The notes under the pieces were generated by a model. The model did not search any database. It was not told where the DNA came from and saw nothing but the letters and a program-made list of their open reading frames with translations. From an uncultured Leptolyngbyaceae cyanobacterium (GTDB lineage: Bacteria > Cyanobacteriota > Cyanobacteriia > Leptolyngbyales > Leptolyngbyaceae): a stretch of DNA of 64,000 nt. Location: the NCBI GenBank assembly GCA_938023035.1, contig CALIDI010000022.1, forward strand, positions 1-64,000, in the 5' to 3' direction. Below are positions 44,332 to 48,063 of this stretch, in pieces. The position numbers and the translations under genes were made by a program. The first letter of the stretch is position 1. Every line of letters starts with the position of its first letter.

Positions 44332-46863
44332 ATGGACGCAACAGCGCGGGTTGGCTGGCTACGCCAACAAACCAACCTGGGTATCCTTTCTGATGCCACA
44401 TTAGCGGCGATCGCCAATGCAGTGCAAGTTGAGAGCTGGCAACCCAACCGCCGCCTAGCTCTAGAAAATAGTCCCCCAACGGCGCTCTATATCCTCTACA
44501 GTGGCCTCTTAGAAAGTTATCGCACCAGTCCCAATAGCCTGGCCCAGCAAGTTGCGAACCTATTACCGGGTTCGATCCTGCATTTCAAGGAATTGGTTCT
44601 GGGGCAACCGGCTGAGACTACCATCATCACCCTGACGGATTGTGAACTGTGGGTGATTCCCCAGGAATCCTTTCGAGCGATCGCCCAGCAATACCCTGAA
44701 ATCGCCCAGAGTTGCTCGCGTCAACTAGCTAGCGAACTCGAGCAGGTAACGGCTGCTCTAGAATACGAGCGCGATCGCCAAGCAGCGCTGCGTCCCTACC
44801 TTGTGCCCAAAGTGCGGCGAGGCATTGTTGGCTCCACTCGATACGCCATTCGGCAGCGGCAGGATATTCGCAAAGCCTCTCAAGATCGGCGACCCGTCAT
44901 GATTTTAGGTGAGCCAGGGCTAGAAAAAGACAATGTGGCAGCACTGATTCATTTCGGCTCAGCCTACCGCAAAGAGCCGATGATTAAAATCAACTGCGAT
45001 ACATTGCAAGCCAGTGGCGTTGAGCTATTTGGACGGGCGGGTGGCAAACGTGGCCTGTTGAGATGGCTGGGCAATGGCACCCTACTACTGAATAACGTTC
45101 AAGACCTACCCCCCACCCTAGAAGACCGATTAATACAACTCCTCAAAACAGGAGAATACCTTCCCGTAGGGCAAACAGAAATTCCACCCCTCCTATACTC
45201 TACAAATGCCCGGATTATCTTGACCACCGAAAAAGTACGGCCAGCAATCACCAAGAACCTGATTGGGCACGATATCAGAATATCGCCCCTGCGGGTGCGC
45301 AAAGCCGATATTGCGGCCCAAGTCGAATACTATCTTAGCCTTGCCTGTCGAGCCCGTGGGATCCGCAAACCCCAGGTTAGCCCAGAAGCCATTCGCCGAC
45401 TCCAGAGCTACGACTTCCCCGGTAATTTGACCGAACTAGAAAGCCTGGTAGAACGGGCCGTGATTCAATCAAACGGAGCAGCCGAACTCACCGAGGAAGT
45501 ATTTTGGTCGGTCAACACCAAAGCCAAACGCTTTCGCGTCAACCTGCTCAATCTCTATCCAGGGTTTCGCCAATTTCTTCGCAGTCCCTGGTACCCCAAC
45601 CGAATCAACAATGGCTTTACCTTTGGGTTCTTTGCAGTGGTGGTTGCTGTCTTGCTGTTTGGGCCTCAAAGTCGCGACCAAAACATCATGCTCAACTTTT
45701 TTTGGGCCTGGTGGTGGCCGCTGATTTTACTGGCTTTTCCCTTTGTGGGGAGGCTCTGGTGTGCATTTTGCCCCTTCATGATTTATGGCGAAGTCATCCA
45801 AAAAATCTCGCTGTGGCTTTTTCCCCGCAAGTTGCGTCCCTGGGCGCGACGAGAAGCCGATCAAATCGGTGGATGGTTCCTATTTGGGCTATTTGCCTTG
45901 ATTTTATTGTGGGAAGAGTTATGGAATTTAGAAGATACAGCCTATCTGTCAGGCTGTTTACTGCTATTGATCACCGCTGGGGCTGTGATTTTTTCCCTAT
46001 TGTTTGAGCGGCGCTTTTGGTGCCGTTATCTCTGCCCGATTGGCGGCATGAATGGTCTGTTTGCCAAACTAGCCGTGATTGAGCTGCGGGCACAACAGGG
46101 GATTTGCTCAGCTACCTGCACTACTTACCAGTGTTACAAAGGTGGCCCCCAGAAAGGAGAGGGTCAGGAAACAGAAGGATGTCCTGTTTACTCCCACCCG
46201 GCGCAGCTTGAGGATAACCGCGATTGTGTTCTCTGTATGACCTGCCTCAAAGCCTGCCCGCATCGCTCTGTAGAGCTAAACCTGCGTCCCCCTGGGATTG
46301 AACTATGGACAACCCACAAACCCACCACCGCAGAAGTTTGTCTGTTGTTCTTACTTCTGGGGGGTGTGTTTCTTCATCGTTTACCTGAAATTGAGGCAGT
46401 ACTTGGAATTAACCTGCATTTAGAGCAAGTAGCAGCCCATGGAGTGGTCGCTTCGCTAGCCTTGGTCTTCCCTGCTGCGATCGCCCTGGCTGCCCAACCT
46501 GCTAGCCTTTGGCTGAATGGATCTGCAAAATCCTGCAACTTTGTCCGGTTAGCCTATGGTTATCTGCCCCTAGTTTGGGGGGGAAGTCTAGCCCACTACC
46601 TGCGTCTGGGGTTAAGCGAAGCGGGTCGGATTCTGCCCGTCACTTTTGCTACTTTCGGCTTAAGTGGGGCAAATCTGCCGGTCGTTGTCGCTCACCCAGC
46701 GGTCATTGCCTTTTTACAGGGTGCCACCCTATTCGCCAGCTTCTGGTTGTCTGTCGCGCTCACCCAAAAAATTGCCCGCCAGCCCCTGCTCCGTCTAGTT
46801 CCTCAGGTTTTAGCCCTCGGTGCGATCGCCGCCCTGCTATGGGCAGTCATTGTTGGCTGGTAA
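44332..46863 (+). CDS. cNMP-binding-like / degenerate sigma-54-activator AAA+ / membrane 4Fe-4S fusion protein
   Basis: An 843-residue fusion. Residues about 10-135 resemble a cyclic-nucleotide-binding domain (ALYILYSGLLESYR, LLPGSILHFKELVLG). About 165-400 match the AAA+ domain of NtrC-type regulators, but Walker A is GEPGLEKD (193-200, the second Gly replaced by Glu), Walker B ends LLLNN (251-255) instead of LFLDE, and the GAFTGA loop that contacts sigma-54 is missing. Membrane helices follow, with NapH/NosR-like CAFCP (C477, C480) and CRYLCP (C564, C568), a CSATCTTYQC cluster, a ferredoxin motif C632-x2-C-x2-C-x3-C642, and more helices to the end. No DNA-binding helix-turn-helix is evident. 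GAGGG precedes the ATG. Confidence 0.85.
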   Translation: MDATARVGWLRQQTNLGILSDATLAAIANAVQVESWQPNRRLALENSPPTALYILYSGLLESYRTSPNSLAQQVANLLPGSILHFKELVLGQPAETTIITLTDCELWVIPQESFRAIAQQYPEIAQSCSRQLASELEQVTAALEYERDRQAALRPYLVPKVRRGIVGSTRYAIRQRQDIRKASQDRRPVMILGEPGLEKDNVAALIHFGSAYRKEPMIKINCDTLQASGVELFGRAGGKRGLLRWLGNGTLLLNNVQDLPPTLEDRLIQLLKTGEYLPVGQTEIPPLLYSTNARIILTTEKVRPAITKNLIGHDIRISPLRVRKADIAAQVEYYLSLACRARGIRKPQVSPEAIRRLQSYDFPGNLTELESLVERAVIQSNGAAELTEEVFWSVNTKAKRFRVNLLNLYPGFRQFLRSPWYPNRINNGFTFGFFAVVVAVLLFGPQSRDQNIMLNFFWAWWWPLILLAFPFVGRLWCAFCPFMIYGEVIQKISLWLFPRKLRPWARREADQIGGWFLFGLFALILLWEELWNLEDTAYLSGCLLLLITAGAVIFSLLFERRFWCRYLCPIGGMNGLFAKLAVIELRAQQGICSATCTTYQCYKGGPQKGEGQETEGCPVYSHPAQLEDNRDCVLCMTCLKACPHRSVELNLRPPGIELWTTHKPTTAEVCLLFLLLGGVFLHRLPEIEAVLGINLHLEQVAAHGVVASLALVFPAAIALAAQPASLWLNGSAKSCNFVRLAYGYLPLVWGGSLAHYLRLGLSEAGRILPVTFATFGLSGANLPVVVAHPAVIAFLQGATLFASFWLSVALTQKIARQPLLRLVPQVLALGAIAALLWAVIVGW

Positions 46864-46869
46864 GTGGAT

Positions 46870-48063
46870 TTATTGACCGATAATCCAGCCATAGGCCATC
46901 AGTAGGGTGATTAGCGTCAGTGGTAAGCCAAACCGCAAATGTTCCCAAAAAGAAAGTGTATACCCCTGTTTGGCGGCAGCCTCTGCCACAATTAAGTTAG
47001 CCACAGAACCAAGCAGCGTCATATTTCCCGCCAGGGTCGCCCCAGCCGAAAGCAACAGCCACGTCTCTGCATCTGGGTTGGGAAGCAGGCGATACAATAA
47101 CAGAACCGTTGGCACATTTGAAACCAGATTTGACAAAAGGGCAGTCACACTCAACAAGTTCAGCGGGGCGTTGACCCACTGGGTAAAACCATTGAGAAAA
47201 CCCAGTCTTTGTACCCCCTCTGTTAAGACAAACAAGCCAGCAAACATCACTAACAAATCCCAATCCACCTTTTGCAAAAAGCGTTCAGGTTTAAACCGCC
47301 GAGTCACCAACAACAAGCCCGCCGCAATCAGGGCAGACTCTGCTAAAGGCATTCCCAGAGCAAAGGCTAGCAACAACCCACTGGTGATTCCCCCACTTTT
47401 GTACAGCAGCGGTTTAAACACCCGGTAACGCTGTGGAGGCACGTCTAGGCATTCCTTAGTCGATCGCACTTCTGGATAAAGGCACCAGAGCAAGCCAATT
47501 TGTACAAATAAGCAGGCGATCGCCAAAGGGGCTAGCGTTTGGGCAAAGTCTAAATAGGGGATTTGTGAAAAAGCCCCAATCAAAATATTTTGGGGATTAC
47601 CACTCAACGTCGCCACCGACCCCAGGTCAGTGCCAGCCGCTAAAGCCAATAAATAGGGAATCGGGTTAAGTTGCAGCCGGCGAGTCAACTCAAGCACCAA
47701 GGGGGTTAATACCAGTGCGATTGTGTCATTGAGAAAGAAAGCAGACAGCACCCCGCTTCCCATCGTCAACAGCACCAGTAAACCAAAAGGGCTTCGGCTC
47801 CAGCGCAGCAGCGAATGAATAGCTAACTGAAAGAACCCCGCCGCTGCCAAGTTGGCATTGATCAACATCATGCCAAACAGAAAAATCAACGTGCGGTAGT
47901 CAATCGCCCCCCAAGCAGATGGTAAATCTAGCAAACCTAGTCCCAGCAAAGCTGTTGCACCCGCTAGAGCAATCGTAGCCCGATTCATGCGTAAGCCAGG
48001 CAAGTAGCCCAACCCTAGCCCAACATAAGTCAGAGCAATCACAAATGCTTGAAAAATAGACAT
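46870..48063 (-). CDS. SLC13/ArsB-NhaD-type anion or ion permease
   Basis: This 397-residue integral membrane protein has about 10-11 helices. It belongs to the ion-transporter superfamily with two repeats: LIFLFGMMLINANLAAAGFF and SGVLSAFFLNDTIALVLTPL in the first, LLVMFAGLFVLTEGVQRLGF and NLVSNVPTVLLLYRLLP in the second. The paired NDT and SNVP motifs form the substrate and cation site in relatives. Substrates in this group include arsenite, sulphate, dicarboxylates and Na/H exchange, so specificity is unknown. It converges with the fusion gene (6 bases). A cluster of AGTCTC sites lies upstream. Confidence 0.88.
   Translation of the reverse strand: MSIFQAFVIALTYVGLGLGYLPGLRMNRATIALAGATALLGLGLLDLPSAWGAIDYRTLIFLFGMMLINANLAAAGFFQLAIHSLLRWSRSPFGLLVLLTMGSGVLSAFFLNDTIALVLTPLVLELTRRLQLNPIPYLLALAAGTDLGSVATLSGNPQNILIGAFSQIPYLDFAQTLAPLAIACLFVQIGLLWCLYPEVRSTKECLDVPPQRYRVFKPLLYKSGGITSGLLLAFALGMPLAESALIAAGLLLVTRRFKPERFLQKVDWDLLVMFAGLFVLTEGVQRLGFLNGFTQWVNAPLNLLSVTALLSNLVSNVPTVLLLYRLLPNPDAETWLLLSAGATLAGNMTLLGSVANLIVAEAAAKQGYTLSFWEHLRFGLPLTLITLLMAYGWIIGQ

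Follow-up and report, generated by a model that had tools for sequence, protein, structure and literature searches.

A cyanobacterial fusion of cNMP-type and sigma54-activator-type AAA+ domains with a NapH/NosR-like membrane iron-sulphur module, a putative membrane redox protein

Background

Proteins of the NapH/MauN and NosR kind contain membrane helices with two cysteine pairs, followed by two four-cysteine ferredoxin-type sets, the clusters being predicted on the cytoplasmic side. CcoG is, like NosR, an accessory protein of the metal-reduction/maturation kind. The membrane module is common to NapH, NosR and RdhC, and quinol-side electron transfer has been proposed for it; RdhC was initially proposed to be a regulator (PMC5928378).

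Sigma54-dependent activators (bEBPs, i.e. NtrC, PspF and NifA) are built on an AAA+ core followed by a lid. TyrR, HupR, DhaR and VpsR, which are related to them, are soluble DNA-binding regulators. These relatives have a bEBP-type AAA+ domain without a working GAFTGA loop, and the GAFTGA-less TyrR, DhaR and HupR are sigma70-dependent (PMC3162934). Sigma54 and its activators were reported absent from 29 cyanobacteria (PMC3162934).

We analyzed a window of 64,000 nucleotides, i.e. positions 1 to 64,000 of contig CALIDI010000022.1 from an uncultured Leptolyngbyaceae cyanobacterium (assembly GCA_938023035.1), in which one gene joins likenesses to both groups. This gene and its orthologues are called type I below, and a paralogous form is called type II.

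Results and discussion

Gene and domain organization

Inspection of the window revealed one uninterrupted frame of 843 codons (Table 1), in which the initial annotation had read a fusion of cNMP-binding-like, sigma54-activator AAA+ and membrane iron-sulphur parts. Pfam confirmed this reading, the matches following one another in a single protein: cNMP_binding (3e-15, residues 35-121), Sigma54_activat (3.5e-16, residues 166-303), AAA_lid (1.5e-12, residues 321-383) and then Fer4_5 (2e-8) over membrane segments. The source genome has two Fer4_5 matches only, both inside this gene. In NCBIfam the middle of the protein matched bEBPs and its membrane part matched NapH/MauN, both with scores far under cut-off. 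A longer frame with a TTG start is also present; the ATG at 44332 is favoured because many orthologues align from residue 1. No HTH or other DNA-binding family was detected by Pfam at E up to 1, as had been claimed, and the lid leads into membrane helices. A literature search found no published description of this cNMP, AAA+ and membrane iron-sulphur architecture. The adjacent convergent gene (46870-48063, minus strand) is permease-like (SLC13/ArsB type, assigned by eye).

Table 1. Features of the type I gene in the window (positions are those of the window)
Feature	Position	Strand	Basis
Whole gene, type I fusion of cNMP-type, AAA+ and membrane iron-sulphur parts, 843 aa	44332..46863	+	uninterrupted ORF, Pfam, orthologue alignment
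cNMP-binding-type (CRP-like) domain, residues 20-140	44389..44751	+	Pfam, fold match, alignment
AAA+ core, sigma54-activator type, residues 166-305	44827..45246	+	Pfam, fold match
Walker A GEPGLEKD; Lys199 invariant, residue 198 Glu	44908..44931	+	alignment of 105 orthologues
ELFGRAGGKRG at the site of the deleted sigma54-contacting GAFTGA loop	45022..45054	+	alignment
Walker B GTLLLNN, Asn at both acidic positions	45076..45096	+	alignment
AAA+ lid domain, residues 321-395	45292..45516	+	Pfam, alignment
Membrane module, residues 425-843, about nine helices: NapH/NosR-related core and C-terminal helix bundle	45604..46860	+	hydropathy, family match, model
First membrane cysteine pair CAFCP (CX2CP), invariant	45760..45774	+	alignment
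Second membrane cysteine pair CRYLCP (CX3CP), invariant	46021..46038	+	alignment
First ferredoxin-type set C592 C596 C601 C617, invariant	46105..46185	+	alignment
Second ferredoxin-type set C632/635/638/642, CVLCMTCLKACP, invariant	46225..46260	+	Pfam, alignment

Distribution of the family

The gene is neither a product of misassembly nor peculiar to this genome: in a protein search, relatives turned up in 268 of 390 Cyanobacteriia genomes, from 126 of 160 genera. Another collection yielded 353 candidate relatives, of which the 80 listed all come from cyanobacteria. In a plasmid collection two records only cover at least 80% of the query, both cyanobacterial. Several variants were observed. 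AAA-membrane forms lacking the cNMP domain occur in marine Synechococcus-type genomes (as inferred from size and family) and in some others, and family f52 has a cNMP-AAA-AAA-membrane arrangement. Its tandem AAA+ modules were seen at three loci (L163:4143-7505, L164 and L165), and at L163 the first Walker B reads LDH and the second LNN. Stand-alone membrane relatives are found in Deinococcus and haloarchaea. The Deinococcus ficus 4Fe-4S protein shares 34% identity with type I across residues 404-785, where each of the twelve cysteines is retained; unlike type I, it and its haloarchaeal counterparts contain no cNMP or AAA+ domain.

Could the gene be an assembly-error join of two genes, or a decaying relic? 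Split or frameshifted copies do exist in a few genomes (G207, G257 and G295), but the two halves form a single intact ORF in nearly all of the 105 type I orthologues, so a joining error is excluded for the window's gene. Relatives in 268 of the 390 genomes and purifying selection on all domains speak against this explanation as a whole, which we consider to have a negligible probability. Decay in particular was rejected on the low ω of every domain, a rough estimate since dS is near saturation.

Loss of sigma54-activator features

The AAA+ domain is well recognized, both by PF00158 (59.8 bits vs a cut-off of 20.2) and by its predicted fold, which matches PspF, NtrX and NtrC1 at Z 19 to 20 (PspF 19.7). 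The initial annotation had described it as crippled, with a Gly to Glu change in Walker A, a Walker B ending in NN and no GAFTGA loop. The loss of GAFTGA and of the catalytic Walker B Glu holds for the family. The GAFTGA segment is missing from the window protein and from the relatives aligned with it, ELFGRxGGKxG taking its place, and the Walker B acids are Asn in 104 and 103 of the 105 type I orthologues, the 103 being those with Asn at the position of the catalytic Glu. The Walker A claim stands in part. The motif is as read, but the changed residue is the last Gly of GxxGxGK rather than the second, and the change is optional: of the 105 proteins, 70 have Glu and 32 have Gly at residue 198. 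None of this set departs from the P-loop lysine or from the GEPGLxKD frame, and in marine-type proteins GEPGLEKDN is retained while Walker B varies. The orthologues uniformly lack GAFTGA, and the catalytic Glu was never seen in the aligned type I and type II proteins, but the Walker A lysine is kept.

"Crippled" is therefore right for sigma54 contact and for catalysis, and too broad for the P-loop, which is intact in 40 of 40 type II proteins. The invariant lysine, the type II GxGKT loop and purifying selection argue that the AAA+ domain probably binds nucleotide without hydrolysis. With ω about 0.03-0.11 between close pairs (a rough estimate, as dS is high and near saturation), the constraint on the AAA core argues against decay. 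Judged from these alignments, what the family has in common is that sigma54 contact and the catalytic Glu are lost, whereas binding of nucleotide is probably kept; in type I, Glu in place of the last Gly of Walker A could weaken or abolish this binding.

The rpoN families PF04552 and PF04963 are absent from the source genome according to a profile search with positive controls (genome 95.9% complete). Among the 390 Cyanobacteriia genomes there were five weak matches, two of them above cut-off and one convincing, and no convincing full rpoN. This survey agrees with PMC3162934 and bears out the general view, noted in the initial annotation, that cyanobacteria lack sigma54. The one convincing trace, in genome G125 (L161:1462-2067, minus strand), is an orphan ORF of 202 aa that carries an RpoN DNA-binding domain; a homologue of the window's permease-like gene adjoins this fragment, probably by coincidence.

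Type I thus differs from bEBPs in having no GAFTGA, no catalytic Walker B Glu, no detected DNA-binding domain and no sigma54 in the genome, which supports, at the level of sequence, the conclusion that it is not a sigma54 activator. It differs from the TyrR-type relatives in being a membrane iron-sulphur protein in which a DNA-binding domain was not detected.

The N-terminal domain is of the cNMP-binding type, with a PF00027 score of 56.4 bits (cut-off 27.5) and a predicted fold matching CNB folds at Z about 17. True cNMP binders have a phosphate-cassette arginine. With the register of type I against CRP set by eye, positions 95-97 show no conserved arginine (R in 4 and 26 of 105, T in 98).

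The membrane iron-sulphur module

Both cysteine pairs noted at the outset were read as stated in the membrane helices. The single ferredoxin motif initially described is present and is one of two, the sets being C592/596/601/617 and C632/635/638/642. The cysteines are kept throughout: all 105 type I and all 40 type II proteins have the full twelve. Hydropathy and charge predict a cytoplasmic N-terminus followed by four helices, with CX2CP, CX3CP and the two ferredoxin sets on the cytoplasmic side, i.e. the same side as the N-terminal domains; about five more helices follow this core according to hydropathy. The AlphaFold model backs the membrane helices, with low confidence in the iron-sulphur region. 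No solved fold matched the membrane half (best Foldseek E 0.38, best Z 6.6), which does not demonstrate a new fold. Haem in the C-terminal helices was not retained as a candidate, since the two clades share no conserved membrane histidine.

Like NapH/MauN, type I has four membrane segments, two cysteine pairs and two ferredoxin-type sets. It departs from NapH/MauN and NosR in its first pair (CX2CP, not CX3CP), its widely spaced first ferredoxin set (CX3CX4CX15CP), its extra C-terminal helices and its fused cNMP and AAA+ head; no FMN domain was found, and the best membrane-family match, NapH/MauN TIGR02163, scores 43.7 bits, far under the cut-off of 213. The four helices and iron-sulphur core form the most constrained part of the protein: pairwise identity averages 84%, 110 of its 231 columns do not vary, and ω is about 0.02-0.03 (again rough, dS being near saturation). 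Mean identity is lower elsewhere: 52% in the cNMP domain, 66% in AAA and 71% in the lid.

The type II paralogue and gene neighbourhoods

Type II was found in 45 of the 390 genomes at a strict threshold, and not in the source genome. In a tree of AAA domains its nine rows fall together to one side of a branch with full support. All 40 type II proteins examined have a canonical P-loop (GxGKTF); 18 of them have Asp as the first Walker B acid, and in every one the catalytic Glu is replaced by Asn, Gln or His. In 23 of the 39 loci with room, cysK starts at most 400 bp downstream on the same strand, vs 0 of 105 type I loci (Fisher p about 1e-16, relatedness ignored); the identity of cysK was confirmed by a family model on one representative locus. 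Type II lies directly upstream of cysK in many cyanobacteria (loci L157, L158 and L200-L230). Other type II neighbours are extra psbA, petC, hemN, haem oxygenase, cytochrome bd subunits (cydAB), and NrdG-like, SQR-like and rhodanese genes, and at least one low-oxygen or sulphide marker is present in 27 of 40 loci, a raw count without a background rate. In two relatives (L124, L127) type II stands beside HdrA/B/C-like genes, a NifX-like protein and a small membrane protein that by eye resembles a b-type cytochrome. This setting points to low oxygen or sulphide for type II, and the place of the paralogue in the cysK operon suggests that the redox chemistry of the family touches sulphur or thiol metabolism, at least in the type II branch.

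The same setting fits a membrane redox sensor, in which the iron-sulphur module would sense redox state or oxygen and the cNMP/AAA+ head would act on expression or on an enzyme through a partner, on the model of TyrR and HupR, which act without sigma54. The head is of regulator type, and sigma70 dependence of TyrR, DhaR and HupR offers a precedent (PMC3162934). However, no HTH or other output domain was found, and constraint is strongest in the electron-transfer core rather than in the head; we regard a sensor as unlikely.

No neighbour of type I is conserved in 108 loci, and gene context gives no lead to its function. The pilB-pilT-pilC neighbourhood of the window's gene is absent among recurrent type I neighbours. 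In two marine genomes (L130, L154) the gene lies beside zinc-uptake-like genes, assigned by eye. Together with the role of NosR in NosZ maturation as well as electron supply (PMC5928378), these genes would suit a maturation or metal-reduction factor, whose electrons reduce a metal or disulphide during assembly of another complex, with the AAA+ head as docking scaffold. No conserved metal or assembly gene adjoins type I, and this explanation appears slightly less probable still than a sensor.

Proposed function

We favour the reading of the protein as a cyanobacterial membrane redox protein, an electron relay of the NapH/NosR kind with a non-hydrolysing cNMP/AAA+ regulatory head, with a probability of roughly 0.6. 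Two putative ferredoxin-type [4Fe-4S] sites and the two membrane-edge cysteine pairs would relay electrons on the cytoplasmic side, with a soluble carrier at one end and quinone or a partner in the membrane at the other, as is thought for the NapH/NosR module. The cNMP-type and AAA+ domains would form a cytoplasmic regulatory head. The AAA+ domain would still bind a nucleotide and be unable to hydrolyse it; instead of a motor it would be a switch, set by a ligand, for oligomerisation or gating. A more specific and speculative version is a class-wide relay between cytosolic ferredoxin and the plastoquinone pool, its head reading adenylate or another small molecule, with cysteine synthase as the partner of a second form when sulphide is present or oxygen is low.

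Conclusion

The warning that automatic annotation as a regulator would mislead is justified by a paralogue that carries the product name "nitrogen assimilation regulatory protein". Synechocystis slr1529 bears this name; it is lower under iron starvation and high copper, and its knockout has altered metabolites without being one of the four mutants whose growth changed (PMC3516471, PMC4182526, PMC5318462). As the match is by product name alone, slr1529 was set aside as orthologue evidence. Such names direct readers to nitrogen regulation for a protein present in most cyanobacterial genera. The paralogue with an intact P-loop next to cysK is new here, and its cysK operon gives a direct experimental handle. 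If the protein is a gated membrane electron carrier, the electron flow of photosynthesis or respiration would gain a component that is so far unstudied, and a sigma54-activator motor would have been reused as a static ligand switch.
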